Source: Endobacterium cereale
GTDB lineage: Bacteria > Pseudomonadota > Alphaproteobacteria > Rhizobiales > Rhizobiaceae
NCBI RefSeq assembly: GCF_009617585.1
Contig: NZ_WIXI01000047.1
Location: forward strand, 124,001-188,000
Length of the DNA: 64,000 nucleotides
Direction: 5' to 3'
Part shown: positions 2,118 to 54,720 of the stretch, one piece after another
How the letters are laid out: every line of letters starts with the position of its first letter
How positions within the stretch are numbered: position 1 is the first letter of the stretch
The notes under the pieces: model-generated
Seen by the model: the letters and a program-made list of their open reading frames with translations, nothing else
The model's database searches: none
Told to the model about the DNA's origin: nothing
Translations under genes and position numbers: made by a program

Positions 2118-3083
<966 letters not shown>

Positions 3084-3285
3084 CTTCCTATAATCTGTAG
3101 GGATGATAGATCCGCAGTGAACGGATTTGGTGTCGCCGTTTAAGGCTTTCACTACGAATGCGCAAGACTTAATTGCTGCGCCCTATCTAGGGTGTCCTTC
3201 GCCGAACTCCAAGCCCTGCGAAGTGACTGTTTTCCTGATTGCTTATAAACATGCGGCCCGGGCGGCAAAGCGCCCTGCCCGGTTC

Positions 3286-3579: not shown

Positions 3580-3627
3580 CTGGAGCGGGTAGCGGGAATC
3601 GAACCCGCGTATTCAGCTTGGAAGGCT
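3580..3627. repeat. Left prophage junction (attL), 48-bp core
   Basis: These 48 bases are identical to 54646-54693 and represent the displaced original 3' half of tRNA-Gly: anticodon stem-loop, T arm, acceptor strand, CCA and one further base. Identity ends sharply at both sides. The 5' half of the tRNA is absent here, so this copy is not a gene. Confidence 0.95.
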
Positions 3628-9063: not shown

Positions 9064-11271
9064 TCAGGCTTCCAAGTAAACGTTAGCCTGAACGTTACCT
9101 GCTGTGACAAAGTTCTGGACCCGAACCTTGACCACGGACTGCGTCGAACTCACGGAAACGACCTGCATTGGGAGAAGGTCCATCGCGCCGGTAGCCGCTC
9201 GAACGGAAAACTGCACCTTGTCGATGTTTGGTACGACGCCAAGAGAATGGTTCAATGTGATGTTATAGTCACCGTTCGCCGATATCGCTCCCACACCTTT
9301 GAAGTTCCCGTAGGTGTTTTTCACGGTTACGTTTCCGCCATCTGCCGGGCCCGTCATCCGGTTCGTTACATCCTTGAATTGGTTGTCCAGAACCTTTGTA
9401 TTAGTGACGGAGCTTGGCAGGGAGATACCGAAGAGCATCGGCGTGTCGCTGGTGCCTCTGAGCACGTTGGACTGAACGAACCCGTTTCCACAGCCATTGA
9501 GGTCGATCCCCACCCGCTGAGTTCTGGTGGCGTTGAACGAACTGATAGTGTTGTCTTTGACCCAGAACTCGACAACATTGACCAGCGCAACACCTACCCA
9601 GTTGCCTGTTCCAACCTCCATTTCATAAAGCTCATTGTCGCGAATGTGTACTTGGCTGCCACCGTCAGCGAAGTACACGCACGTGCTGAAAGCAGAGATA
9701 TGGTTGTTGACAATGTGGAACAGGGGCCGAGAGTTGACATCCCCCGAACGGACAATGCCGGTCCGGGTGGCTACAAACTGGTTCTTCGCGATAAAGAAAC
9801 CTTCTTGCGCGCCGGTAATTTCCAGCCCCTTGTCCGTGAATACAGACCTGTTGTTCTCAATTATGTGATCGGTTGCGAGATTGTTGCCGCGAAGCCGTAT
9901 GAACGTGGCGTTATATTCATAAGAGCCCTGCCAGTTACCCAAGAATTCGTTATCTTTGATCGTGGACTTGGTGCTGTTGAGGATGTCGATACCATAGCCC
10001 CAGCCTTTGTTTGCATCATTTCCCCGCAGGAGATTTTCAGCAATCAGCAAGCCTGGATGGGTCATGCCCTCAGCATTGTTGCCATTGATCGAAATAGCCG
10101 TCCCAGCGAGGTTAGCCTGGCGCGTGGTCACAAAGGTGCATCCTTTGATCGTCAGCGTATTGCGCCCAGATCGAACCCCATTGTTCAGGGTGAAGTCAAA
10201 CCCACCGTTATCGCAGTCGAACACGAATGCGCTGACGTCACGGCCCCCTCCCTCGATTGAAAGTGGGGCCAAGCTCACCGGCATGTTGTATGTGACTTTG
10301 CCGGTAAGTCTGTAATAGCCACCGGTCAGAACGCCGCGAACTTTGCGCTTAACGCAATAGTCGAGCCATGAAATGACGGCCAAACTGTCATCGGACCCAG
10401 AAGAACCGTTCCAGTCGCCCTTGGCCCCAAACATCTTTGGAGACGGTGAGCTTTCAACAAGCTCCCACCAGCCTCCCCCAACTCGGGGCAACTTTCCAGG
10501 GTGCGACGGCTCAGACGCGACCCATGCATACTGAGACCGACCGCCGTCACCGGCAGATGCATACCCGCCGACAACCACAGACATGACCACCGCCGGAACT
10601 GCAGTCACAGCCAGTAGCGCGCGGGTGGCTACATTCGCCCAATTCGCAATGGAAGCTGCCACCGCTTGATCTCTGGCTTCCAGCGCATCTTCGACAAGCT
10701 CAGCCACCTGCTCAAGAGCGGGGGAGAGCGCACCATATCCGAAGAGAATTCTGAACTTGCCATCTTTGAAGATCAGGAGCGTCGGACGTCCCTGAAGAAA
10801 TTCACCGGTAGCGATCGGGTTTCCGTTTGGATAAACCGCTTGGAACGTACCCACACCAGCCACCGCGATCGTCACCGCGCCAGTACTCGTCAGATTTGGG
10901 GTGATGCTGTAGAGCCTGCTCTCGATCATGATTGGGGGCTGGCTTACGGTAATATTGTTCGCAGTTCCGCCGGTGACGGTGAGGACGGTGACAGCCGCAC
11001 GCTCAAAGATGCGCTCGAACGTCATCGGCATCCACGCCGAGCCGATGCTGTCCCATTCCTTCAGAACGGCCGGATCAGTGTTTTTGTCCAGCCACAGCCG
11101 ATTGGTCGCGGGCGGATCGACATCATCGACCATCCGGTCGAGTAGCCCTGCCGCACGCATGGTGGCGAGCGTGAACTCTGACGGCCGCACGTCATAAGCA
11201 TTGCCGGTTCTCATCGCACCAGGACCTTTGAAGGTCACGAAGTGCTGGCTGTCGTTGAGTTCGGTGGCCAT
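9064..11271 (-). CDS. Tail spike with right-handed beta-helix domain
   Basis: A 735-residue spike. The first ~230 residues should bind the tail (they include a short PPIMIESRLYSI beta domain and a helical ALEQVAELVEDALEARDQA linker). From about residue 290 the sequence shows the repeating short-strand pattern of a parallel beta-helix of the pectate-lyase type (AENLLRGNDA, IKDNEFLGN, IENNRSV, IAKNQFVATR, IVNNHISAF, IRDNELYEM, VKDNTISSF, VQSNVLRG, VLDNQFKD). These spikes bind and often cut surface polysaccharide. MAT at 11271 was preferred to the ATG at 11280 because a GGGATG lies upstream; the choice is not firm. Confidence 0.85.
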   Translation of the reverse strand: MATELNDSQHFVTFKGPGAMRTGNAYDVRPSEFTLATMRAAGLLDRMVDDVDPPATNRLWLDKNTDPAVLKEWDSIGSAWMPMTFERIFERAAVTVLTVTGGTANNITVSQPPIMIESRLYSITPNLTSTGAVTIAVAGVGTFQAVYPNGNPIATGEFLQGRPTLLIFKDGKFRILFGYGALSPALEQVAELVEDALEARDQAVAASIANWANVATRALLAVTAVPAVVMSVVVGGYASAGDGGRSQYAWVASEPSHPGKLPRVGGGWWELVESSPSPKMFGAKGDWNGSSGSDDSLAVISWLDYCVKRKVRGVLTGGYYRLTGKVTYNMPVSLAPLSIEGGGRDVSAFVFDCDNGGFDFTLNNGVRSGRNTLTIKGCTFVTTRQANLAGTAISINGNNAEGMTHPGLLIAENLLRGNDANKGWGYGIDILNSTKSTIKDNEFLGNWQGSYEYNATFIRLRGNNLATDHIIENNRSVFTDKGLEITGAQEGFFIAKNQFVATRTGIVRSGDVNSRPLFHIVNNHISAFSTCVYFADGGSQVHIRDNELYEMEVGTGNWVGVALVNVVEFWVKDNTISSFNATRTQRVGIDLNGCGNGFVQSNVLRGTSDTPMLFGISLPSSVTNTKVLDNQFKDVTNRMTGPADGGNVTVKNTYGNFKGVGAISANGDYNITLNHSLGVVPNIDKVQFSVRAATGAMDLLPMQVVSVSSTQSVVKVRVQNFVTAGNVQANVYLEA

Positions 11272-32547: not shown

Positions 32548-32724
32548 ATGGCTATAGAGAAACCAACCGAAGAACAGTTGAACGAAGTTCTCGATATCAT
32601 CCATGACATTGCAGCGCGGGTCTCAAGCGAAGAGGATATCCCTCGCGAAGTCGCCGTTGCCTTGGACGAAATAATTGCACTGTCGCGCTACGAGTCGAAC
32701 GTGACGAACAGTAAGCGGAGATAA
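32548..32724 (+). CDS. Small acidic phage protein on the plus strand
   Basis: A 58-residue, helical, acidic protein (MAIEKPTEEQLNEVLDIIHD; EVAVALDEIIALSRYES). The ATG has GGGAGGATGGG directly upstream, a strong ribosome-binding site. It runs against the virion operon, between the fibre-like genes and a small membrane gene. Function unknown. Confidence 0.55.
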   Translation: MAIEKPTEEQLNEVLDIIHDIAARVSSEEDIPREVAVALDEIIALSRYESNVTNSKRR

Positions 32725-33117: not shown

Positions 33118-33133
33118 CTTTCACTCCTCAAAC

Positions 33134-33166
33134 TAAAGCCCCGCAACCTTTACGGCGACGGGGCTT
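33134..33166 (-). terminator. Terminator at the end of the leftward early operon
   Basis: On the minus strand AAGCCCCG pairs with CGGGGCTT around a longer imperfect loop and is followed by TAGTTT. It lies between the tRNA-like element and the virion genes. In the 344-base stretch 33118-33461 only this hairpin and the tRNA-like element are recognisable; in 33167-33375 I see no gene. Confidence 0.7.
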
Positions 33167-33375
33167 ATGGGCGATATACCCTGTAGGAAGAACGGAAAGG
33201 CTACTCACAGCCACAGTGAACGGTGGCATGCTGTCTGCCCCGCAGCGTTTCGAACCACTGCTTTGGGACGCCCTAAGGGTAAACCCGTTGTGGTTTCGCC
33301 TTCCCGATCAATGACCCACCTGGGTGCGCATCGTTGAGAGGCGTTGGCGGGTTCTGTTCTCTTGCCCCAGAGGCA

Positions 33376-33444
33376 GGCCACCGGCAGGCTTTGAACCTGC
33401 GACCTCGCCATACAGCGCGCTCTGACCTGCTGAGCTACGGCGAC
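33376..33444 (-). ncRNA. tRNA-like element with shortened anticodon arm
   Basis: On the minus strand 69 bases fold almost as a tRNA. The acceptor stem is GTCGCCG/CGGTGGC (seven pairs, two wobble). The D arm is TA-GCTC-AGCAGGTCA-GAGC with the loop GG. The T arm is GCAGG-TTCAAAG-CCTGC with a canonical T loop. Between D arm and variable loop there are only 12 bases (CGCTGTATGGCG) instead of 17, giving at best a 3-bp stem and a 6-base loop, so no standard anticodon. No CCA is encoded, unlike the four host tRNAs in this window. It lies 18 bases after the last gene of the leftward operon. Confidence 0.6.
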
Positions 33445-34534: not shown

Positions 34535-34806
34535 TCTTGGGCCCTCAAGTGGCTGACAACTTCTGTCCTTATTCCCTGTTGCGAAAAGGTCCCTCTGGTA
34601 GGGCTGAACTCATCGAGCACCAATTCGACAAGGTGCTTGATCTGCTTCGGCTTGGTGACACCCATGCGGACAAAGTTGTCGACCACGGTGAATCCGTAAT
34701 CGTGGACAAGCTCTCGCAAAGCGGGCGGCAATTGGTCAATCCGATCCATGCGAGCAGCCCGCTTACGCTGAACCATTACATCGAAAGGCTCTTGATGCTC
34801 AATCAT
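34531..34806 (-). CDS. Hypothetical phage protein, possible small DNA-binding
   Basis: A 91-residue, basic helical protein (MIEHQEPFDVMVQRKRAARM; DYGFTVVDNFVRMGVTKPKQ) whose middle resembles a helix-turn-helix. The ATG at 34806 follows GAGGGTGG and overlaps the end of the GcrA-like gene (ATGA at 34803-34806). Function unknown. Confidence 0.6.
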   Translation of the reverse strand: MIEHQEPFDVMVQRKRAARMDRIDQLPPALRELVHDYGFTVVDNFVRMGVTKPKQIKHLVELVLDEFSPTRGTFSQQGIRTEVVSHLRAQE

Positions 34807-35429
34807 TCCACCCTCGCCTTCACCGATCGCACCCGATGGTGCTCGCAATACCCGTTGATGACTTGCGTAGGAGCCGCGCAGAAGATGAACGGACCACCGT
34901 TGTTCAGTGGCCAGTGGCAGCACCGCCGCGTCAGTTCGTGCAGTTCCTTGCCGTGAGACAGCCGGTCAGCGTCATAGCCAGCCGGTGGCAGGAAGATGCT
35001 GGGATCGATGCAATCCGGCGCCGGTTCAGCCGATGGTGCGCGCTTGACTTTGTAGTTCGTCCTGCCGCGAGGTCTGGCCGGGAAAATATCGCGGTTGCTG
35101 TAGGCATAGTTCAGCAACTGGGAGACCGACTTGCCGATGGCTTCCGCGATCTCCTTTGCAGGCCTCTTTTCAGCCCATAGCCTTGACGCCTTCTTGACCA
35201 TCTCAGGCGTCATCGGGTTGACGGCGCGCTTCGGCGGGGCTGGCTCCTCTACCCCCTTCACCGGAGGCTTCACGAAAGACAGGTCAGGTGTTCGGTTGAT
35301 CTTGCTGATGACCGAGTTGCGCGAGATGCCCATGCGCTCACCGATCATGCGAGCCGTCAGACCTTCGGCGCTGAGCTTTGCCAGTCTGGCTGTGTTTTCG
35401 TCCGTCCATTTGAAGTTCTGGATGTTCAT
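34803..35429 (-). CDS. GcrA-like cell-cycle regulator
   Basis: A 208-residue homologue of the alphaproteobacterial transcription factor GcrA, which works with sigma-70 polymerase at methylated promoters. Residues 8-45 match the GcrA DNA-binding helix-turn-helix: WTDENTARLAKLSAEGLTAR then MIGERMGISRNSVISKINR. Residues 170-200 match the C-terminal Cys-rich end (CCHWPL, FCAAP, YCEHH). Between them is a second helix-turn-helix-like segment (MVKKASRLWAEKRPAKEIAE; IGKSVSQLL) that host GcrA lacks as far as I know. It lies in the same operon as two DNA methyltransferases and a CtrA-like protein. Confidence 0.8.
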   Translation of the reverse strand: MNIQNFKWTDENTARLAKLSAEGLTARMIGERMGISRNSVISKINRTPDLSFVKPPVKGVEEPAPPKRAVNPMTPEMVKKASRLWAEKRPAKEIAEAIGKSVSQLLNYAYSNRDIFPARPRGRTNYKVKRAPSAEPAPDCIDPSIFLPPAGYDADRLSHGKELHELTRRCCHWPLNNGGPFIFCAAPTQVINGYCEHHRVRSVKARVE

Positions 35430-35755
35430 GCCTCTGCCCTCCTCTCGACTTCCACTACCTTGCCGCCGCCGAGGAAGAGCTTGCGATCAGCCGCGGCAAA
35501 CTTGGCCTTTTTGGCAGGTGTCATCCCGTCGATAGCTGACTTGGCCGCGAAGATGATCTCGCCATCCCGGTTCATCACCCTTCTCTCGATCGAGTAAAGG
35601 AAGCGCCAAGCGGCGACCTCGGCAGCCAGTGCCGATGTGAAATAGGCTGTCACGCCCTTGTTCTTGACCTTGCGGAAGCTCGCGGCCCATACGGGGCGAT
35701 AGTGCGCCTCGTAGCCGTTGATCGTCCCTACCGCTTCAACTGCTGACTGGTTCAT
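35426..35755 (-). CDS. Hypothetical phage protein
   Basis: A 109-residue basic protein with an N-terminal beta part (GTINGYEAHYRPVWAASFRK; GVTAYFTSALAAEVAAWRFL) and a lysine-rich middle (MTPAKKAKFAAADRKLFLGG). It overlaps both neighbours by 4 bases, between the cytosine methyltransferase and the GcrA-like gene. Not recognised. Confidence 0.6.
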   Translation of the reverse strand: MNQSAVEAVGTINGYEAHYRPVWAASFRKVKNKGVTAYFTSALAAEVAAWRFLYSIERRVMNRDGEIIFAAKSAIDGMTPAKKAKFAAADRKLFLGGGKVVEVERRAEA

Positions 35756-36750
35756 GCTGCAATCTCCATGTAAGCGCCGATCACTTCTGCCGCGACTTGC
35801 GGGACGATGGCATTGCCGTAGGCGCGCAGCTTTCCCACTCGGGCTGGAACCCCATGAGCCAGCAGACGAATGCTGGATTCAGCGCGCCGGGCTTTTCCGT
35901 CTGCTCCCGCAATCCAGTCACATTCTCCCCAAGGCCCAGAGCGTCGGTTGCTTCCGTGGTTAGGGACTTCTGCGATCCTTTTGCATCCCCCATCCGGCGC
36001 TGGTAGCCAAGGCGCGCTTCGTGAGCCATTGGCGTCGGCCAGAGGCTCACATGAACACTCTGGATTAGGTCCTGCGGAGACCCTTTCCGGGCTATTTCGC
36101 GCATCGTCCCGGCCGAAGTTCGCACATTCTTCTCCCCGTCCGCCGTCCGAGGTGTCGGCCAAAGAGAGCAGCCCTGCACCGCCTGCTTTAATGCCAGACC
36201 ACCTTGCCTGTTCGGCGGCACCTTCGCGCCGGTCCCCTCGTTCGCCCGCGGCGTCGGCCACAAACCAAAGTCGATCTCTTCGATGGGGCGTATCGACGGC
36301 ACAAGCCGGAACAACAGCCGACCAGCAGGAGTAACGGATGCTTTCCATGTCAGAATGCACTCTGTCGAGCCAATCCTTGCCAGCCGCAGCCGCAACCTGT
36401 TCTCCCACATAGACAGCCGGTCGTCGTGCAGCGATGAGGCGGTGGACGTGCGGTCGGAGATAACGGTCGTCGGCTTCGCCAAGGCCCTTGCCTGCGACAC
36501 TGTACGGCTGGCATGGCTCGCTTCCGCTCCAGAGTTCCCGATCGTCAGGAAATCCAGCCAGTCTAGCTGCATAGGACCATCCACCGATGCCCGCGAAGAA
36601 GTGGACCTGCGTGTAGCCCTTGAGGTCATCCGGTTGGACATCCACGATACTCCTTTCATCGACATCACCAGGTGCGATGAGGTTCTTGCTGATGAGGTTG
36701 CGAAGCCACTGGGCCGCGTATGGATCAAATTCGTTGTAATACGCGCTCAA
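35752..36750 (-). CDS. DNA cytosine-5 methyltransferase
   Basis: A 332-residue C5-methyltransferase that should transfer methyl from S-adenosylmethionine to cytosine. Motif I is VHFFAGIGGWSYAARLAGFP (49-68); the catalytic Cys80 is in SEPCQPYSVAGKG; motif VI reads GEQVAA in place of the more common ENV; motif VIII is HRRDRLWFVA; motif X is LRAYGNAIVPQVAAEVI. The target-recognition region has repeated LAD(T/A) units. No restriction gene is nearby, so it is an orphan enzyme, probably for protection or regulation. A second long open frame overlaps almost all of it. Confidence 0.87.
   Translation of the reverse strand: MSAYYNEFDPYAAQWLRNLISKNLIAPGDVDERSIVDVQPDDLKGYTQVHFFAGIGGWSYAARLAGFPDDRELWSGSEPCQPYSVAGKGLGEADDRYLRPHVHRLIAARRPAVYVGEQVAAAAGKDWLDRVHSDMESIRYSCWSAVVPACAVDTPHRRDRLWFVADAAGERGDRREGAAEQARWSGIKAGGAGLLSLADTSDGGRGEECANFGRDDARNSPERVSAGPNPECSCEPLADANGSRSAPWLPAPDGGCKRIAEVPNHGSNRRSGPWGECDWIAGADGKARRAESSIRLLAHGVPARVGKLRAYGNAIVPQVAAEVIGAYMEIAA
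35781..36728 (-). other. Long open frame overlapping the cytosine methyltransferase in another frame
   Basis: This frame, on the same strand as the methyltransferase, stays open for 315 codons. It contains LTWKASVTPAGRLLFRLVPS, three LWPTP units, and LNPAFVCWLMGFQPEW followed by ESCAPTAMPSSRKSRQK. I remember the same motifs from many phage proteins annotated as hypothetical or methylase. Reading the bases shows why: LWPTP is the shifted reading of LADT/LADA, and the WLMGF block is the shifted reading of LLAHGVPARVG-LRAYGNA. It may be a true overlapping gene or a shadow held by constraint on the methyltransferase. A start at 36572 (MQLDW) is one candidate. Confidence 0.3.
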
Positions 36751-38231
36751 AGCCCCAACTCCTGCTGGTTCCGCTTGGGTTTGGGGGAGACGTAGCGGGT
36801 GAACTCCGCTTCGAAGTTGACGAACTCCTGAATGGTCGGATCACCGAAGCGCACCTTGATCGATGCCAGCTCGGCAACGCCTTCGACCTCGGAGCCGAAC
36901 ACGCTGTTGATGGTCTTCCAGTCGCTTGCGGTGGCCGCGACCTTCTCCCGTTCCTTCTTGTATTTCTCGGGCCGGTAGAGGGTCATGACGGCGTCGTAGT
37001 CAGCTCGGGCACCCTCCCCGCCGTAAAGGTCGGCAGCGATCGGACGCGGGTTGTCACGCTTGGAGCCAAGGCCGTTACGCTGGTTGAGGATGAGGACCGC
37101 TGATTGCGTCTCGTAGGCTAGAGACTTCAGCTCGACGGTTACCTCACCGGAGATGCGGTCTGGTGAGAGCTTTGGGTCGCGAGGCTTAACCTTGCCGATA
37201 TGATCGATCACGATGAATGGCGTCTTGCCGTTGGCCTGCTTCTTGATGAAACGGCGGGCGTAGGCGACGAGCTTGTCCACGCCCTCGCGCTGGCAGCGGA
37301 TGATATCGAGCGGCCGATTGTTGATGGCCGTGGCGAACATCACGCAGGTATCACGCTCCCGATCACTCATCAGTCGGGTCGGCTCGCGCTGCTTCTTCAT
37401 GCTGATGCCGTGAACCTGGGCAATCATCTGCCCGATGCACTGATCCGAGGATTGGTCGTAGGAGAGGAACAGAACCGGATGGCCTTCCTCGACAGCATGA
37501 TAGATGAGCTGCATGGTCAGGCTGGATTTGCCCTCACCCGATGATGACAGGAGGCCATAGAGGTTTCCAGCCTCGAATGCTGGCTCCGAAAGCACCCGCT
37601 GAATTTCGGGCAGAGCGATCGGCACCCCGACCACGCCATCACGCCGCGAGGATGCCTCAAACTTAGCGAGATACGAAGCGCCGGGGGACGCGCCGGACTT
37701 AAGGGCTGACAGCCGCTGACGGCGCTCCTTGAGGCGCTTCTCAAGCTGTTCGATCTCATCGTCCAGCGTCAGGAGGTTATGGCCTTCCTTGGCTATCTCC
37801 GCGGCGATGGTGGCTTCTCTGGCCAGTTGGCGACCGAGGGACATGCCCTTGATGATGTGCAGGGAAGGATCAAGCCGGCGCATGGTGGATGGCTCAAAGC
37901 CGAGGCTCATCAGGCGCGACATATAAAGCGCCGGAGACATGCCGCCCTCATCACCGGCATAGTCGGCCCTACCGCTGCGCGACTTGCTGAGAGTCTTCGG
38001 AAGGAAAGGCTTCAGCGATATGGCGGTAACCGGCTGCCCGCTCCGGAACAGCTCGATCGCTTCCTTGAAAACCAATTGGTGTATCTCTTCGGCGAAGTCC
38101 TCGAACTCCAGACCGCAATCGGTCAGGATGGAATTATTCGTCAGCATGCAGGCCAAGAACACTTCGGAAGCCTCAAAGGCATCGTCCTCGGTGATACGGT
38201 CGAACTGGCTGCGATCTACGGGGCCGCTCAT
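36747..38231 (-). CDS. Replicative DNA helicase, DnaB family
   Basis: A 494-residue hexameric helicase for phage replication. The N-terminal domain (to about 120) contains EASEVFLACMLTNNSILTDC, a DnaB-like opening. The RecA-like domain has Walker A at 230-237 (SSGEGKSS), Walker B-like PFIVIDHIGKV, and the DnaB motif AVLILNQRNGLGSKRDNPRP then LYGGEGARADYDAVMTLYRP. A charged linker with EIEQLEKRLKERRQRL joins the two. It overlaps both neighbours by 4 bases. Confidence 0.9.
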   Translation of the reverse strand: MSGPVDRSQFDRITEDDAFEASEVFLACMLTNNSILTDCGLEFEDFAEEIHQLVFKEAIELFRSGQPVTAISLKPFLPKTLSKSRSGRADYAGDEGGMSPALYMSRLMSLGFEPSTMRRLDPSLHIIKGMSLGRQLAREATIAAEIAKEGHNLLTLDDEIEQLEKRLKERRQRLSALKSGASPGASYLAKFEASSRRDGVVGVPIALPEIQRVLSEPAFEAGNLYGLLSSSGEGKSSLTMQLIYHAVEEGHPVLFLSYDQSSDQCIGQMIAQVHGISMKKQREPTRLMSDRERDTCVMFATAINNRPLDIIRCQREGVDKLVAYARRFIKKQANGKTPFIVIDHIGKVKPRDPKLSPDRISGEVTVELKSLAYETQSAVLILNQRNGLGSKRDNPRPIAADLYGGEGARADYDAVMTLYRPEKYKKEREKVAATASDWKTINSVFGSEVEGVAELASIKVRFGDPTIQEFVNFEAEFTRYVSPKPKRNQQELGL

Positions 38232-39388
38232 GCTGCTTCCTCATTCTCGATCGAGGAAAGCCCGCCAGTAATCCGGCGCTCGGCAATGTCCGCGTATTCG
38301 GGGTTCAGTTCGATCATGACGCTGCGAAGGCCGAGCTGCTCGGCTACGAGCGAGACCGTACCGGCACCACCGAAGGGATCGAAGACGATGCCAGGTTCGG
38401 TACCGAAGACTTCACAGATTGGACCACAGCCAGCGGCAGATCCGCAGCACGCGCATATCTGCTTCGGCGTACCTGCCTTCATGCAACGTTCGGCAAGTGC
38501 CGGCGGGAACGTGGCGAAGTGCGCTTCGCGAAAAGCCTTTGGCGCGATCGACCAGACGTTTCGAGCGTTGCGAGTTTCGACCAGATCGCCAGTAGCGGCG
38601 GCAAATGATGGCTTGTTCTTGCGAAACGGGTCGTTTTCATCAGCCATCTTGCTGATACGATCGCGTCCTCGATCGGATTCCGCAGGATTGATCTTGTCCA
38701 GTCTGCCCCAGCCAACGCCCGTTTGTGATTTCTTGCGAGACACGGGAACTCGATCGACGTTCTGTCGACTGTTAGGCCCCGGCTTGCGAGCATGTGCGGT
38801 ACCGGTGACCGGCTCGCGGATCTCCTCGTGCGCATAGAAGTAATCTTCTCCCTTGGTCAGGAGCCAGATTTTCTCGTGCGATGTGGTCGGACGGTCGTAA
38901 ACCGATTCCGGCATGGGATTTGGCTTATGCCAGATGATCTCAGATCGGACGTACCAGCCATCCTCCTGCAGCGCGATCGCCAACCGGTTCGGTATCATGC
39001 AGAGGTCTTTTGACTTCAGCACGCCGCCAATCGTTGAGAATGGCTTGTCGCGAAACGTACGATCGTCTGTTCCGTCTGCCTTATAGGCTGCCGCCGACTT
39101 TCCATTTGGCGTCGTGGCATAGCAGTCACCATAGTTCAGCCAGAGCGTCCCGGCGGGCTTCAGCACGCGCCAGACCTCACGGAAGACGTTGACCATAACC
39201 TCGAGGTGTTCGCCCAGCGTCGGCTCGAGACCGATCTGACCGACAACGCCATAGTCGCGCAGTCCCCAATAGGGTGGCGATGTCACGACGCAATCGACCG
39301 AGTTCGCCGGCATAGACCGCATGACCTCAATGCAGTCACCAACATGCATGGTGCAGCGCCCGTCGAGAAGAGTTCGTGTCTGGCTCAT
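38228..39388 (-). CDS. Amino-group DNA methyltransferase (N4-cytosine or N6-adenine, beta class)
   Basis: A 386-residue enzyme with motif IV TSPPYW at 36-41 and motif I DPFGGAGTVSLVAEQ at 337 onward. The order IV before I marks the beta class, which includes CcrM. The SPPYW form is more common in N4-cytosine enzymes, although some N6-adenine enzymes have it. An insert with CACCGSAAGCGPIC may bind zinc. No cognate nuclease is adjacent. It sits in the operon with CtrA-like and GcrA-like regulators, so it may mark promoters as well as protect phage DNA; the latter idea is inference. Confidence 0.87.
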   Translation of the reverse strand: MSQTRTLLDGRCTMHVGDCIEVMRSMPANSVDCVVTSPPYWGLRDYGVVGQIGLEPTLGEHLEVMVNVFREVWRVLKPAGTLWLNYGDCYATTPNGKSAAAYKADGTDDRTFRDKPFSTIGGVLKSKDLCMIPNRLAIALQEDGWYVRSEIIWHKPNPMPESVYDRPTTSHEKIWLLTKGEDYFYAHEEIREPVTGTAHARKPGPNSRQNVDRVPVSRKKSQTGVGWGRLDKINPAESDRGRDRISKMADENDPFRKNKPSFAAATGDLVETRNARNVWSIAPKAFREAHFATFPPALAERCMKAGTPKQICACCGSAAGCGPICEVFGTEPGIVFDPFGGAGTVSLVAEQLGLRSVMIELNPEYADIAERRITGGLSSIENEEAA

Positions 39389-40011
39389 GCTGCCACCGAT
39401 GGGCGCTCATTGCGCTGCTGGATGAGTTTCAGCCAAGGCTCGTGATACCGGCCGGCGTGGACCTTCATGTCGCGGACGCCCCAGCAAATCGCGAGAGCGC
39501 ATGCTTCGGCCGCGTTGTGGCCAAGAGCCTTCTGCTTAGGAAGCTGGATGCCCAGACGCTCGCATTCATCGACCGCGGCTGACTTCCAGTCCTTCTTGCC
39601 TTTCTTATCGACAGGAGGCTTGAAGCCTTCACCGAAGAACGACTTGCGCCAGGAGGCGGGCATTAGCGTGCCGTAGGGGATGCCGAAGTTGGCGAGCGTG
39701 GCGACGATGGCAGAGGTCGCGACCCAAGGATAAATCATGGCGTCGGCGCTGGTGTTGCCGACCTTGGCGAGGATCTGCTGCTCAAGCACTGCGAACTTCG
39801 GATATGCGCCATGCGCTTCCTTGTGCGCCCGCAGGAGCGCCGTGGTCTTCAATCCGATCTGGTCGCCAGTATAGTAGTGGTCAGCGCCGTCAGGCATCTG
39901 GAAGACGCCGCATTCGATGTGGGAGAAGTTACCGTCTGCCTTGCGGCGATCTGGGCTGTAGAGGCACCAACCAGTGCTCTTGGAGGGGTCGAAGCCGATG
40001 ATGTAGGTCAT
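39385..40011 (-). CDS. RuvC-like Holliday junction resolvase
   Basis: A 208-residue RNase H-fold nuclease. Expected acidic residues appear in IIGFDPSKSTGW (first Asp), FAVLEQQILAK (Glu) and GHNAAEACALAIC (C-terminal His/Glu pair in place of the common D-x-x-D). The spacing is that of phage RuvC-like resolvases, which clear branched DNA before packaging. It overlaps both neighbours by 4 bases, within the replication gene group. Confidence 0.8.
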   Translation of the reverse strand: MTYIIGFDPSKSTGWCLYSPDRRKADGNFSHIECGVFQMPDGADHYYTGDQIGLKTTALLRAHKEAHGAYPKFAVLEQQILAKVGNTSADAMIYPWVATSAIVATLANFGIPYGTLMPASWRKSFFGEGFKPPVDKKGKKDWKSAAVDECERLGIQLPKQKALGHNAAEACALAICWGVRDMKVHAGRYHEPWLKLIQQRNERPSVAA

Positions 40012-40589
40012 GCCGCCGACTCCAGCAGAGGCTTGAGCTTCTTGTAGTGCCGCTCAACGGCCATGTACGGCATCTTGAGGATTGAGGCGCACTGAGCGAC
40101 CTTCATCTTGCGGCGCATAAGGCCAAGCAACTCGTTGTCGAGATCGTCGCTCCATCGGCGCGTGGTGCCGGCCGCGCGGTTGCGAATGCTCGCCTCTTTG
40201 ATCAGCAGCGCTTCCGACGCATCAGCCTCGACAAGCTTGTAGCCCTTGCCCCATACGGTTTCCACGACGAGACCGACGTCGGCCATAGCCGGTCTGATCT
40301 TGCACACAATGACATCCACAATCTTGATGTCTGGGCCTTCGCCGTTCTCGCCCATAAACACTGCGTCATAGATAGCCTCTTTGGTGGCCATGCGAGGGAA
40401 GCAGTCGGTCAGATACTTCGCTAGATTGAACTGCTGACGAGAGAGCTTGATAGTCTTGTCGCCGTTCGTGATCTGGCATGTGTTCGGATCGACCAGAAAC
40501 CGCACATCCTCGACAAACTGGAGGCAGCAAGGGCAGATCAACGCATTACGCTTGGCGGGGATTTCAGGAAAGCTTTTTTCGGCCTGCAT
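40008..40589 (-). CDS. CtrA-like winged-helix regulator with zinc-ribbon start and second helix-turn-helix
   Basis: A 193-residue DNA-binding protein. A Cys cluster (ICPCCLQF) at 18-25 could bind zinc. Residues ~40-125 are an OmpR-type winged helix close to the DNA-binding domain of the master cell-cycle regulator CtrA: ATKEAIYDAVFMG, DIKIVDVIVCKIR and VVETVWGKGYKLV parallel CtrA's LTKEMFLNHLYGG, ELKIIDVFICKLR and YIETVWGRGYVLR (from memory). Residues ~145-193 (RRWSDDLDNELLGLMRRKMK; KMPYMAVERHYKKL) look like a GcrA/Myb-type helix-turn-helix. There is no receiver domain, so it cannot be phosphorylated like CtrA. Confidence 0.78.
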   Translation of the reverse strand: MQAEKSFPEIPAKRNALICPCCLQFVEDVRFLVDPNTCQITNGDKTIKLSRQQFNLAKYLTDCFPRMATKEAIYDAVFMGENGEGPDIKIVDVIVCKIRPAMADVGLVVETVWGKGYKLVEADASEALLIKEASIRNRAAGTTRRWSDDLDNELLGLMRRKMKVAQCASILKMPYMAVERHYKKLKPLLESAA

Positions 40590-42399: not shown

Positions 42400-42756
42400 T
42401 CAGTCGTCCTCGTATTTCGGAGGAGCTGGAAGCGGTCGCCACATCGTTGGCAGGAACGGTATGTCGATCCTGCTTTCGCAGACCGGCCATCTCGCGCCGG
42501 GTATCTGGCTATCGACCCACTGAAGGGTCACCCATTCGTCAGCAGAGATATTATGGGTCAGGCAGACGAGGATCTCGGTCCCATCCTTCGGAGCCGTGGC
42601 GATGTCCTGCCACTGGTCGCGCTGGCGCTCTGCGAGGATGGCTTCGGAGAGACCGACGACGACGCCCGCACCTTCCCAGCCTTCCTCGCGGATCTTCTTC
42701 ACGATCGATCGCGCCGCCTCTACGATATCCGCCGGCATGTCGGTGAGAGAGGTCAT
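42400..42756 (-). CDS. DUF551-like phage protein
   Basis: A 118-residue protein. The C-terminal half carries QWQDIATAPKDGTEILVCLT and a closing TMWRPLPAPP, the hallmark of the DUF551 type of small phage proteins. The N-terminal half is a helix (PADIVEAARSIVKKIREEGW). The ATG at 42756 overlaps the stop of the PP-loop gene. Function of the family is not known. Confidence 0.7.
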   Translation of the reverse strand: MTSLTDMPADIVEAARSIVKKIREEGWEGAGVVVGLSEAILAERQRDQWQDIATAPKDGTEILVCLTHNISADEWVTLQWVDSQIPGARWPVCESRIDIPFLPTMWRPLPAPPKYEDD

Positions 42757-43658
42757 GCGGCCTCGCTTTCGGGTGCGCAATGAAGGCCGCACTCCACGTC
42801 AAACTCGTAATTTTCATCATCCAGAAGACCGGGCATGAACGGCTGAGCCGCTACTTCGCGCTCAAGATCGGCATAGCTGTATTCCGTGGTGAAGCGGCGA
42901 CCAGCTTCCGTGGCTTTGGCGCTGCGCATGGTGATGGATGCTTCACGCTCCTGCCACCAATCGGAAATGCCTGGGTTGTCGCGGATCAGCCGCTTAAGAG
43001 CGCCGCGCGATTTGAGCATGCAAAGATCACAGTTGCCCTCGTAGTCTCGGATACCGAGATCGAACCCTTGGGGCAGATCGTGCGTCAGGTTGATAGGGTC
43101 GGCGTTCTCGCCCAGCCAGAAAGGCAGTACGTGACCACGCTTCGTGTGATGCGCCTTCGCCATTGGCATGGAGGTCGTCCAGCGTTCCTTGCGCGCGTCA
43201 TTTGCCGCAAGTTGCTTGAGAACTCGGTGCCCCTCGTCGTAACGAAGGCCAATGACATTCGTCCAATGGGTCCAGCCAAGGTTGAGGCAGAACTGCTTCA
43301 TCACGCGGACCTTGAGTTCGCTTGTGCAGAAGCGGGTGACTGCGTTCGGCAAATAGCCCTTCTTGTCGATAAGAGCCTTGAATGGCTCACCGAGGCGAGC
43401 GGCGCTGTTGAAGCCGACCTCGTCGTAGCCATCGGCGGTATACTCAAGCCAATGGATCTTCACATTCCAGCGCGATCCGCACTCATGGACGAACCTCAGC
43501 GTCTCTTCGCGCTCCTTGCCGGTGTTTGCGAAGACAACCACCACATCATCAGGCAGCTTGCCATCATACGCTTTGAGTATCTCGTGGAGCATGAAGGCCG
43601 AGGTGCGACCGCCGGAGAACGAGATCAGCGCTGGGCCGGTGATGAGGTACGGGTTCAT
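42753..43658 (-). CDS. PP-loop (adenine nucleotide alpha-hydrolase) protein, PAPS reductase-like
   Basis: A 301-residue enzyme. The PP-loop SFSGGRTSAFML lies at residues 13-24, then VVVFANTGKEREETLRFVHE, both typical of PAPS reductase/DndC-like proteins that activate a substrate with ATP. Cysteines in TRFCTSELK and NCDLCMLKSR are spaced as in members that bind iron-sulphur or carry sulphur. Phage members are common but their substrate is mostly unknown; sulphur transfer to a nucleic acid is one option. It is the second gene of the leftward operon, coupled to the Cro-like gene by ATGA. Confidence 0.75.
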   Translation of the reverse strand: MNPYLITGPALISFSGGRTSAFMLHEILKAYDGKLPDDVVVVFANTGKEREETLRFVHECGSRWNVKIHWLEYTADGYDEVGFNSAARLGEPFKALIDKKGYLPNAVTRFCTSELKVRVMKQFCLNLGWTHWTNVIGLRYDEGHRVLKQLAANDARKERWTTSMPMAKAHHTKRGHVLPFWLGENADPINLTHDLPQGFDLGIRDYEGNCDLCMLKSRGALKRLIRDNPGISDWWQEREASITMRSAKATEAGRRFTTEYSYADLEREVAAQPFMPGLLDDENYEFDVECGLHCAPESEAA

Positions 43659-43900
43659 GCCGACACCTGTTCGGTCTGGTGTTTCTGCTCGGCTTCGTTC
43701 AGCCACTCGACCATCCGCTGGTACGTCTTGATGTTGAAACCCAGCTCGGGGTTCTCGACGCGCGAAAGGAACTTGCTATCGTTCACGGCAGCGATGCTCA
43801 TTGCCGAGAAGCTTGTCTTGGTCGCCTTGCGGAACGCTTCGGCGCGAGCGATCAGGCTAGTCCTGATCTCGTGTGCGGTGATTTCTGGTTGCTGGGTCAT
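43655..43900 (-). CDS. Cro-like repressor
   Basis: An 81-residue helix-turn-helix protein (SFSAMSIAAVNDSKFLSRVE; NIKTYQRMVEWLNEAEQ). It is divergent from the S24-type repressor with the palindromic operator between them, the place of Cro. Two starts are possible: ATG at 43909 (MNVM) and ATG at 43900 (MTQQPE). The promoter -10 lies right before the latter, so a leaderless message from 43900 is the better fit. It is the first gene of the leftward operon. Confidence 0.75.
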   Translation of the reverse strand: MTQQPEITAHEIRTSLIARAEAFRKATKTSFSAMSIAAVNDSKFLSRVENPELGFNIKTYQRMVEWLNEAEQKHQTEQVSA

Positions 43901-43984: not shown

Positions 43985-44656
43985 ATGGAAACGTCTCTGC
44001 AAAAACGCCTGAAAATCCGAATGGATTTGATGAACATGAATGCGCTTCAGACCGCCAAGAAGGCTGGACTGGGCGAAAGCTTTGTGCGCGATATCCTTCG
44101 CGGGAAGTCGAAGAACCCCGGCGTCGAGAAGCTTGAACGCCTTGCGGCCGCACTCGATACCAACCTCGACTGGTTCACCTCATCGGCCGAATTCGACAAG
44201 TCGCCGGCCAAGCCAAAGACCGTCGAAGGTCTGGATGTCGTCGGGTCCATTCAAGCTGGCAACTGGATCGATCGCAGCGTCATCGACGAGGAAAGCGAGA
44301 GAGAAATCATCCCTGTGGCCCGCGATCAGCGTTTCCCACACGCAAAGCAGTATGCGCTTGAGGTGATCGGGGACTCGATGGACCTGGAATATCCTGACGG
44401 GTGTTTCGTGACCTGCGTCGATTTCTGGGATAGCGGCCTAAGCCTGAAGGACGGGCACATCATACACGTCGAGCGCCATAACGGCCCACTGGTCGAGATG
44501 ACGCTGAAAGCCGTGGAAACGATCGATGGCGTCCAGATGCTTGTCCCGCGCAGCTCCAATGCTCGCCACAAGGCCATCCCATTGGAAGGTGACGGCGGGA
44601 CAGAAATCCTCGTGAAGGGCATCGTCACAGGCAGCTACAAGCGCGCAATCCTCTGA
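43985..44656 (+). CDS. Phage repressor, LexA/S24 autocleaving type
   Basis: A 223-residue lysogeny repressor. Residues 1-65 are a helix-turn-helix domain (NALQTAKKAGLGESFVRDIL; VEKLERLAAALDTNLDW). The C-terminal half is an S24 peptidase: cleavage site Ala91-Gly92 (SIQAGNW), catalytic Ser131 in VIGDSMDLEYPDG, and Lys175 in MTLKAVE. Damage-activated RecA should trigger self-cleavage and induction. No clear ribosome-binding site precedes the ATG at 43985; GATACT lies six bases before it, so the message may be leaderless. In-frame ATGs at 43949 and 43970 lie within the operators. Confidence 0.88.
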   Translation: METSLQKRLKIRMDLMNMNALQTAKKAGLGESFVRDILRGKSKNPGVEKLERLAAALDTNLDWFTSSAEFDKSPAKPKTVEGLDVVGSIQAGNWIDRSVIDEESEREIIPVARDQRFPHAKQYALEVIGDSMDLEYPDGCFVTCVDFWDSGLSLKDGHIIHVERHNGPLVEMTLKAVETIDGVQMLVPRSSNARHKAIPLEGDGGTEILVKGIVTGSYKRAIL

Positions 44657-44657
44657 A

Positions 44658-44719
44658 ATTCATATGGACACCCGTGGTCCCTATGATTTGAGCGATTCAT
44701 ATGGACACCCGTGGTCCCT
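44658..44719. repeat. Two 25-bp direct repeats, possible replication origin iterons
   Basis: Identical 25-bp units at 44658-44682 and 44695-44719 start 37 bases apart. Each holds ATGGACACCCGTGGTCC, which contains an interrupted palindrome (GGAC...GTCC). They follow the repressor stop codon by one base and lie near the end of a gene for a winged-helix protein. In 44720-44889 no gene is recognised. Repeats like these are often bound by replication initiators or regulators. Confidence 0.75.
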
Positions 44720-53253: not shown

Positions 53254-53465
53254 CCCGAGCCGCATTCCGGCAAGCTGACATGGAGCGCATATTCCGGGCA
53301 GCCAAAAGCCAGGGTATGGCGGTAACGATTGATATCAGATCACTGGTTGTTACCGCTATTCCAGATATCCACAGGCCAGAGGCGGTTGACGTCGACCATG
53401 GCCGGCCCCGCATTCTCCCGCTGGGCAATCTCGCCCCAGATGGAGAAGAGAACTTTGAGGACTGA
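53250..53465 (+). CDS. Small protein before the integrase, possible excisionase-like
   Basis: A 71-residue protein (MTRAAFRQADMERIFRAAKS then QGMAVTIDIRSLVVTAIPD). The FRQAD..R..RAAK opening is common in short proteins encoded just upstream of rhizobial phage integrases. A DNA-bending excisionase role fits the location but no winged-helix motif is clear. It overlaps the integrase start by about 11 bases. Confidence 0.6.
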   Translation: MTRAAFRQADMERIFRAAKSQGMAVTIDIRSLVVTAIPDIHRPEAVDVDHGRPRILPLGNLAPDGEENFED

Positions 53466-54597
53466 TAGGCCCGGATACCAGTACCGGGCGAACAAGGACG
53501 GCACGATCGTCCACTACTGGAACCCGCGCAGAGCGGTTAAGGGCTGCTCACCCAGCCTTTCCACGATAAGACTGCCCGACGACAGCACCGACGAGCAGAT
53601 CGCAGCAGAGTGCCAGCGTCTCACGAATCAGTTGCGTGAGGAATTCCGCCTACTGGACGCACCTGTCGAGTTCGACGGAACAATCTCGTCTCTGATCAAG
53701 TGCTACCGCTACGACAAGACGAGCTCGCTGCACAGCGTCAAGCACTCCACCAAGATCCGTGACTACGAGCCGAGCCTGCGCGTTCTCGACAAGAGCGTTG
53801 GGAAAAGGCGTATCGACCGTTTGGTCGCATCTGACTTCAAGCGGTGGTACGCGGACTGGCGCAGGAAAGGCCACAGACGAGCGTCAGGCGCAATTAAGCT
53901 TCTGCGGGTGATAATCTCCTACGGAGCAGGAGAACGCCTCCACGGATGCGCTCAGGCCAGAATGATCCTATCCGACATGCGCTTTGAACAGCCCGCTCCT
54001 CGTACGGTCGCAATGACCTACGAGCAATGCCAGGCGATCGTGAGGCAAAGCATTGAGATGGGCTGCCCCTCGATAGGATTTGTCGAAGCTCTGAAGTTCG
54101 AGACAGCTTTGCGCCGTATCGACGTAATCGGGGAATGGGCACCTACGCCTGAAGGTGGGGAGTTCCGCTGGTCAGGCCTAATGGCCAAGGACATTTCAAA
54201 AGAAATGATCCTGACACTCAAGACGAGCAAGACAGGTGCCGCGGTAGCGAGAGATTTGAAAAGCTATGCCCTAGTCGGGGAAGCCATGGCGGCTTATCGT
54301 ATACCGGACATTGGTCCGGTGGTGATCGATGAGGATCACGGAAAGCCGTACTGGGAGAATCGTTACACCGAGAAATTCAAGAAGGTGCGCGATGCGGCCG
54401 GCGTTCCATCGGACGTGTGGTCTATGGACTCTCGGGCTGGTGCCGTTTCGGAGACGGTCGAAGCGACAGGGTCTCTTGAGGCAGCCAGGGAATTAGCAAC
54501 CCACACCACGACAAAGACCACCCGACGCTACAGCAGAGGCGACGGATTGGAGGCGAGCCGCAAGGTGGCCGAAGCACGTGCTGAAAAGCGCAAGTGA
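53455..54597 (+). CDS. int: Tyrosine-type site-specific integrase
   Basis: A 380-residue recombinase that inserts the phage into tRNA-Gly. The catalytic domain shows Arg in FETALRRIDVIGEW, Lys in LTLKTSKTG, MDSRAGAVSE (the box is usually HxxR; here the His is replaced, as in several rhizobial phage integrases), a second His in ATHTTTKTTRRY, and the Tyr nucleophile in RRYSRG. An N-terminal core-binding domain has KRWYADWRRKGHR. The TTG at 53455 follows GGAGAAGAG; an ATG at 53440 is also possible. attR begins 49 bases after the stop. Confidence 0.93.
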   Translation: MRTDRPGYQYRANKDGTIVHYWNPRRAVKGCSPSLSTIRLPDDSTDEQIAAECQRLTNQLREEFRLLDAPVEFDGTISSLIKCYRYDKTSSLHSVKHSTKIRDYEPSLRVLDKSVGKRRIDRLVASDFKRWYADWRRKGHRRASGAIKLLRVIISYGAGERLHGCAQARMILSDMRFEQPAPRTVAMTYEQCQAIVRQSIEMGCPSIGFVEALKFETALRRIDVIGEWAPTPEGGEFRWSGLMAKDISKEMILTLKTSKTGAAVARDLKSYALVGEAMAAYRIPDIGPVVIDEDHGKPYWENRYTEKFKKVRDAAGVPSDVWSMDSRAGAVSETVEATGSLEAARELATHTTTKTTRRYSRGDGLEASRKVAEARAEKRK

Positions 54598-54645: not shown

Positions 54646-54693
54646 CTGGAGCGGGTAGCGGGAATCGAACCCGCGTATTCAGCTTGGAAGGCT
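54646..54693. repeat. Right prophage junction (attR), 48-bp core
   Basis: This is identical to 3580-3627. It supplies the 3' half of an intact tRNA-Gly, so the phage rebuilds the gene on integration. The core reaches from one base past the CCA end to within the 5' strand of the anticodon stem, so the anticodon loop, the usual crossover place for such integrases, is inside it. Confidence 0.95.
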
Positions 54694-54720
54694 GCTGCTC
54701 TACCATTGAGCTATACCCGC
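54647..54720 (-). tRNA. tRNA-Gly (anticodon TCC), rebuilt by the prophage
   Basis: A 74-nt minus-strand cloverleaf: acceptor GCGGGTA/TACCCGC, D arm TAGCTCAATGGTAGAGC, anticodon loop CTTCCAA, T arm with GGTTCGATTCC, CCA encoded. The 5' part is host DNA and the 3' part (to 54693) is phage-derived. Confidence 0.97.

Follow-up and report, generated by a model that had tools for sequence, protein, structure and literature searches.

A phage homologue of GcrA has already been published: gp222 of the lytic Caulobacter phage phiCbK was proposed to alter the replicative state of the host (Gill et al. 2012, PMC3556154), and the available part of that article mentions no CtrA-like partner. In the phiLM21-like prophages of Sinorhizobium meliloti, five prophage open reading frames (ORFs) are annotated as GcrA cell cycle regulator, a likeness by annotation, again with no CtrA-like partner mentioned in the available text (PMC12429752). 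A receiver-less phage CtrA is known as a database annotation. Both gp37 of Roseobacter phage RDJL Phi 1, annotated ctrA, and gp59 of Rhodobacter phage RcKeef, annotated as a helix-turn-helix (HTH) protein, lack a receiver and scored 87.2 and 51.3 bits, respectively, with a profile of 29 CtrA DNA-binding domains (DBDs). GcrA was not found in the stretches read of these two phages (49 kb and 12 kb), and a term search of the available text of the RDJL Phi 1 genome paper gave no mention of CtrA (PMC3070671). Among the matches listed from the open-licence PMC literature (titles and abstract openings), no description of a receiver-less phage CtrA family or of a phage CtrA plus GcrA pair was found. 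We analyzed a window of 64,000 nucleotides from Endobacterium cereale (NZ_WIXI01000047.1, positions 124,001 to 188,000; assembly GCF_009617585.1). It holds a 51-kb prophage whose early operon encodes both a predicted CtrA-type winged-helix protein without receiver (wHTH) and a predicted GcrA-family protein. The wHTH resembles gp37 and gp59 in being phage-encoded and receiver-less with a CtrA-type DBD; these two differ from it in having other partner regions and no CPxC motif. Rhizobium phage RHph_X2_30 (MW980061) has a wHTH of 54% identity together with a GcrA-like protein that likewise contains two HTH units; it differs in its Casjensviridae genome, in the distance of about 6.4 kb between the two genes, and in having no amino-methyltransferase (amino-MTase) by PF01555. 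We read the two E. cereale proteins as phosphorylation-independent phage regulators that would act mainly on host cell-cycle promoters and hold the cell in replication, and give this tentative reading a probability of roughly 0.4.

The wHTH (193 amino acids, 40008..40589, minus strand) matched only one Pfam domain above its cut-off, Trans_reg_C (37.9 bits, cut-off 26.2). No receiver family was detected by Pfam, and the DNA-binding domain starts at about residue 28. The protein consists of a CPCC motif (residues 19-22), an OmpR-type DBD (about 28-122), and an extra C-terminal helical region (about 141-192). The CPxC motif stands where the receiver would be and was kept in 33 of 34 wHTH relatives found by protein search and in 108 of 120 short proteins listed in a wider search described below. 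For comparison with the host, the 20 Trans_reg_C matches of its genome were reduced to 19 OmpR-type proteins by removal of the phage gene. Against this set, the family profile built from the 34 relatives ranked CtrA (G000:C46) first with 45.0 bits, the next protein reaching 23.8; with the single wHTH sequence the corresponding values were 36.9 and 13.2 bits. All 17 NCBIfam families matched by the wHTH are response regulators; CtrA leads them (34.9 bits), followed by RpaB (25.7 bits). The cut-off of 350 bits for the CtrA equivalog, a model that includes the receiver, was not reached, and none of the 17 families came near its equivalog cut-off; in a control, host CtrA scored 422.8 bits with the same model. 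For the wHTH, the CtrA DBD profile also outscored a profile pooled from the remaining 18 host OmpR proteins (40.1 versus 30.6 bits). In a tree of 67 domains, CtrA and the receiver-less proteins fell on one side of a branch with values of 100/99, and these 18 host OmpR domains on the other. The tree comprised 15 of the 29 CtrA domains, 14 of the 34 wHTH relatives, 20 short proteins out of the 120 listed, and the 18 host domains; it was built on only 99 columns, and its non-CtrA OmpR rows all came from one host. One of 30 CtrA loci (L100), missed by the motif filter, had been left out. The wHTH and CtrA share a K-I-x-D-V-x-x-C-K-x-R helix and an E-T-V-W-G-[KR]-G-Y wing, and the wing of the wHTH is nearer to CtrA (8 of 10 positions) than to the other rows printed (at most 6 of 10). 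Thus, as judged from its sequence, the wHTH carries a CtrA-type DBD; it differs from host CtrA in the absent receiver, the CPxC N terminus, and the additional C-terminal helical region.

As an alternative, this protein could be an ordinary regulator of the OmpR type, not specially related to CtrA. Its AlphaFold2 model (predicted local distance difference test score of 83) displayed an OmpR/PhoB-type fold plus the additional C-terminal helical region, and the best 50 of 914 fold matches included SaeR, CadC, ToxR, PhoB, and other proteins but not CtrA. A sequence search of solved structures likewise returned other response regulators with weak E-values. In addition, 14 of 154 receiver-less proteins scored no better with the CtrA DBD profile than with the pooled profile, whereas the CtrA profile was superior in the remaining 140. 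Fold search, as it turned out, cannot discriminate CtrA from other OmpR domains, and the sequence profile and tree tests favor CtrA; we regard the ordinary regulator as very improbable. The C-terminal HTH of the wHTH showed a weak similarity to the GcrA HTH (hhalign, 40.8%).

The GcrA-like protein (208 amino acids, 34803..35429, minus strand) scored 56.1 bits with Pfam GcrA (cut-off 26.9), compared with 196.7 bits for host GcrA. It harbors two N-terminal HTH units (about residues 7-49 and 75-112), followed by a GcrA-type C-terminal sigma-interaction region with the pattern C-x-W-P...F-C...Y-C-x-x-H. The N-terminal HTH is doubled, as the two HTH profiles align with each other (hhalign, 98.3%), and the RN-x-V-I stretch known from host GcrA is retained in the first unit, though not in some relatives. 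A profile of 13 phage GcrA forms matched the solved GcrA DBD (5yiu) and, separately, the sigma-interaction domain (SID) of GcrA (5yix_B, E 7e-7); Cys171, Pro180, Cys184, Tyr194, Cys195, and His198 were invariant in the 13 rows. The AlphaFold2 model was of low confidence in the C-terminal half. With the NCBIfam GcrA equivalog (cut-off 280 bits), the phage protein reached 32.9 bits and the host's own GcrA 150.2 bits, also below the cut-off. The NCBIfam cut-offs for GcrA and CcrM were consequently of no use as tests, because the host's own proteins fall short of them. These matches place the phage protein in the GcrA family, with a predicted role as a sigma70 cofactor. Caulobacter GcrA binds domain 2 of sigma and N6-methyladenine (m6A) promoters, according to the available part of PMC7403470.

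The sequence-only reading of this stretch had described a winged helix close to the CtrA DBD but devoid of a receiver, and a GcrA homologue with an N-terminal HTH and a Cys-rich C terminus. The profile, NCBIfam, and tree results for the former and the Pfam, 5yiu, and 5yix_B matches for the latter bear out both descriptions: neither did the wHTH fall among generic OmpR-type domains, CtrA being preferred in profiles and tree, nor did its companion fall outside GcrA, the Pfam cut-off being exceeded.

From position 40589 down to 34803 on the minus strand, seven genes follow one another, each sharing 4 bp with its successor. The wHTH gene comes first, followed by genes for a RuvC-like Holliday junction resolvase (39385..40011, PHROG 159 and 1770), a beta-class amino-MTase (38228..39388), a DnaB-like replicative helicase (36747..38231, Pfam DnaB_C and DnaB), and a C5-cytosine methyltransferase (C5-MTase) with a TTG start and a PCQ motif (35752..36750). 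Then come orf109 (35426..35755, PHROG 32205), which overlaps each neighbor by 4 bp, and the GcrA gene. The block is flanked by gaps of 90 bp before the wHTH gene and 268 bp after the GcrA gene, beyond which lies orf151. Because the seven genes overlap successively, they are likely to form a single transcript. All four ORFs of the earlier description, those for the two regulators and the two MTases, were recovered on the minus strand with the coordinates given here.

The two regulator genes also occur together in other phages and prophages. A GcrA gene lies directly downstream of the wHTH gene in L031, L032, L034, L037/L046, and L047, and at another position of the record in RHph_X2_30, L038, and L044, the wHTH of L044 being a distant relative. 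A sister prophage (L061, 88% identity in the large terminase subunit) and L104 lacked both regulators in the stretches read (21.6 kb for L061). Among 14 wHTH loci, eight contained GcrA (the window, L003, L031, L032, L034, L037, L038, and L047) and six did not (L030, L035, L039, L040, L041, and L048); compared with 3 of 34 loci without wHTH this gave a Fisher p of 0.0008, a value to be read with reservation, given non-independent lineages, the different ways in which the two sets were obtained, and a reading of only 10 kb per side for some loci. The count omits the distant relatives L042-L045, and near-identical pairs were merged by hand (L030/L033, L035/L036, L037/L046, L039/L050, and L041/L049). 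The pairing is recurrent, with, by our own judgement, perhaps three or four independent cases; the statistics are modest.

Several observations weigh against regulators directed at the host cell cycle. The wHTH is only 31% identical to host CtrA over 97 residues, and the 16-mer of its recognition helix is no closer to CtrA (7/16) than to the host protein L006 (7/16); therefore, the bound sequence may differ from that of CtrA. The recognition helix alone was accordingly rejected as a discriminator between CtrA and other OmpR proteins. For the second regulator, the single phage GcrA sequence matched the SID part of 7ye1 weakly (3.5 bits), such that the match to this region is carried by the family profile only. 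The wHTH is rare in chromosomes, being found in 2 of 394 genomes of the host family at E up to 1e-15, including that of the window. Of 17 viral records containing a wHTH relative, only 7 also had GcrA; the records may be fragments. In a set of loci collected with orf151 (wHTH counted from 100 bits, GcrA from 50 bits), enrichment was weak: 3 of 7 wHTH-bearing loci had GcrA, compared with 3 of the 34 others (Fisher p 0.051, or 0.11 after merging of near-copies). Seven of the 48 orf151 loci (L105, L109, L114, L121, L130, L145, and L146) were excluded since they offered less than about 6.5 kb upstream; L114 has a GcrA match of 89 bits. Four weaker GcrA matches among the 34 (L111, L125, L131, and L133; 21-27 bits) were not counted. 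Twelve of the 34 loci have a weaker CtrA-like match (28-85 bits), and none of these twelve has GcrA at 50 bits or more; therefore, in that set the wider family does not share the pairing.

In its fullest form, the idea of a phage mirror of the host cell-cycle circuit would join the wHTH, GcrA, and both MTases into one epigenetic clock copying CtrA-GcrA-CcrM. All four genes lie within one overlapping operon, L047 and L032 also combine wHTH, GcrA, and amino-MTase, and CcrM analogues have been reported in Sinorhizobium phages (available part of PMC9437464). As the sequence-only reading had noted, the two MTases are of different chemistry, matching N6_N4_Mtase (136.1 bits) and C-5 DNA_methylase (51.5 bits) in Pfam, respectively. 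The amino-MTase has the beta-class fold in common with CcrM, its solved relatives include CcrM and N4-cytosine enzymes, and its best NCBIfam family was CcrM with 72.2 bits (cut-off 830), compared with 628.1 bits, also below the cut-off, for host CcrM. It differs from CcrM in its catalytic motif (TSPPY versus DPPY in the host enzyme) and in its lack of a match to the RAMA domain (PF18755), which scored 66.5 bits in host CcrM. Both families are widespread: relatives of the amino-MTase were found in 256 phage records, with Mycobacterium and Gordonia phages as the largest groups, and relatives of the C5-MTase in 368, with Escherichia and Paenibacillus phages as the largest groups, all below 60% identity. 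An N6_N4 MTase accompanied only 3 of the 17 viral records having a wHTH relative. Conversely, the amino-MTase follows RuvC without wHTH or GcrA in L104 and L118, and the C5-MTase occurs without either regulator in L061, its co-occurrence having been assessed solely by searching the retrieved loci with a single sequence. Family breadth, the SPPY motif, the missing RAMA domain, and separate occurrence led us to reject the MTases as part of a regulator circuit, and a complete four-gene clock is highly unlikely. The proposed mirror thus stands in its CtrA and GcrA arms, through profiles, tree, and Pfam, and fails in its methylation arm. We judge the amino-MTase to lie outside any cell-cycle module; both enzymes appear to be common phage enzymes, whose most likely role, going by the habit of their families, would be self-protection against restriction, separate from the regulators.

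The prophage is bounded by a 48-bp direct repeat, of which attL (3580..3627) is the 3' part of tRNA-Gly and attR (54646..54693) covers the 3' part of tRNA-Gly (gene 54647-54720). Next to attR an integrase gene was matched weakly (53398-54597, 25.4 bits). The plus strand bears a gene for a CI/LexA-type repressor (HTH_3 plus Peptidase_S24, 43985..44656), divergent from the early operon, as well as ERF, YqaJ, and NinB genes; the minus strand carries the early operon, both terminase subunits (small and large), a head-tail adaptor, and tail and other virion genes. A 25-bp perfect direct repeat (44658-44719) lies directly downstream of the repressor gene. An abiF RNA (Rfam, 42.4 bits, cut-off 37) was detected at 33314-33351 on the minus strand, and no match to the Abi_2 (AbiF) protein was found in the available host genome; the solitary antitoxin-like RNA is perhaps a decoy. 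Directly upstream of it, a tRNA-like element with a shortened anticodon arm (33376-33444, minus strand) scored 40.8 bits with Rfam tRNA and was missed by ARAGORN. L047 has an abiF RNA directly after its orf206 (10429-10465), and L040 has a tRNA at the same place, following its orf206. A PAPS-reductase-like protein (42753-43706, minus strand) gave a 40-bit match to SspD of phosphorothioate defense systems; an annotated PAPS reductase gene is also present in RHph_X2_30. Near attL, an EF-Tu gene (2118-3152, minus strand) lacks its first part, the Pfam GTP_EFTU match beginning at profile position 68 of 188.

The DNA sites bear on whether the two regulators would act on the host or on the phage itself. 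The prophage contains 50 GANTC sites compared with 131 expected (0.38); an order-1 background enlarges this apparent depletion (50 versus 269 expected). Nineteen host loci (61 kb) gave a similar figure (69/148, 0.47), and depletion is therefore not clearly a phage-specific mark; we rejected it as a signature, though the host flank of the window (12.6 kb, 23/32, 0.72) is less depleted, and RHph_X2_30 gave 0.82. By our own gene list, 10 of 51 GANTC sites were intergenic, two of these in the att repeats, so that a GcrA-like reader of host m6A marks would meet canonical sites only rarely in the phage genome. The earlier remark that GANTC is missing from the switch regions and from 33118-33375 was correct there, but our gene list puts two sites into further gaps of this region (at 32692 and 34690) and a third shortly after the repressor gene (44694). 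No exact copy of the CtrA box, which we take to be TTAA-N7-TTAA, was found in the prophage, and one was found with up to one mismatch (2.9 expected). In 11 intergenic gaps, the only direct repeat of OmpR-type spacing was one 7-mer in the tRNA-like region. Given the missing CtrA box and the few intergenic GANTC sites, canonical targets would be host promoters.

The same sites would also suit wHTH and GcrA proteins that recruit host sigma70 polymerase to middle or late promoters of the phage through diverged sites, their kinship with CtrA and GcrA reflecting the host as a pool of parts. The regulators sit in the early operon between repressor and terminase genes, a usual place of phage stage regulators. 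The helix position that we take to match PhoB His198 varies within the wHTH family, and the GcrA-like protein has a second HTH. Retention of the host RN-x-V-I stretch in the first GcrA HTH, despite its loss in some relatives, and the single 7-mer repeat in the intergenic gaps speak against it. This phage-internal role is a serious, if still doubtful, alternative that stays close; its counterweight is mainly the lack of canonical sites in the prophage.

Action on host cell-cycle promoters, the reading that we prefer, would proceed as follows. Lacking a receiver, the wHTH should escape the CckA-ChpT phosphorelay and would thus be constitutively active. After induction, it would sit on CtrA-type promoters without phosphorylation and block or replace host CtrA, while the GcrA-like protein would bring sigma70 RNA polymerase to S-phase-type promoters. 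Together, the two regulators would keep the cell replicating and non-dividing while the phage is copied. The host possesses its own targets for such interference, namely CtrA (422.8 bits), GcrA (150.2 bits), and CcrM (628.1 bits, with RAMA). In S. meliloti, depletion of CtrA leads to elongation and genome amplification (available part of PMC4433202); therefore, a CtrA competitor combined with a GcrA-type activator would favor phage replication.

A profile of the receiver-less forms detected 203 proteins at E up to 1e-4, of which 120 were listed; the length limits of this search exclude full response regulators. In a phage collection, the short protein P0117 matched 32 records, assigned to Rhodobacter (21), Roseobacter (6), Paracoccus (2), and Rhizobium (1) phages, with two lacking a host assignment; beyond the protein of RHph_X2_30, two of these proteins were examined. 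Across the receiver-less proteins, the DNA-binding domain is kept, and the partner region varies. In RcKeef gp59 (L153:5638-6243; a phage of R. capsulatus), DUF6456 is fused to the CtrA-type domain, a module that we take to be known from gene-transfer-agent activators. Phages of Alphaproteobacteria may have repeatedly separated the CtrA DBD from the receiver and fused it with different modules (the CPxC motif, a coiled-coil-like N terminus, DUF6456, or a C-terminal HTH). The partner regions would then form dimers, independent of phosphorylation and possibly zinc-linked, and some lineages would combine the protein with a sigma70 cofactor of the GcrA type into a two-gene device driving the host into replication without division. 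We consider this broader scheme rather unlikely. Action on host promoters, if true, would give a meaning to the group of short CtrA-like proteins, some of which are named OmpR-family or CtrA regulators in databases.

If the two regulators do act on host cell-cycle promoters, phages carry constitutive versions of both master regulators by which the cell cycle of Alphaproteobacteria is split into phases, and it would become directly testable how such phages deal with host cells that are not replicating.

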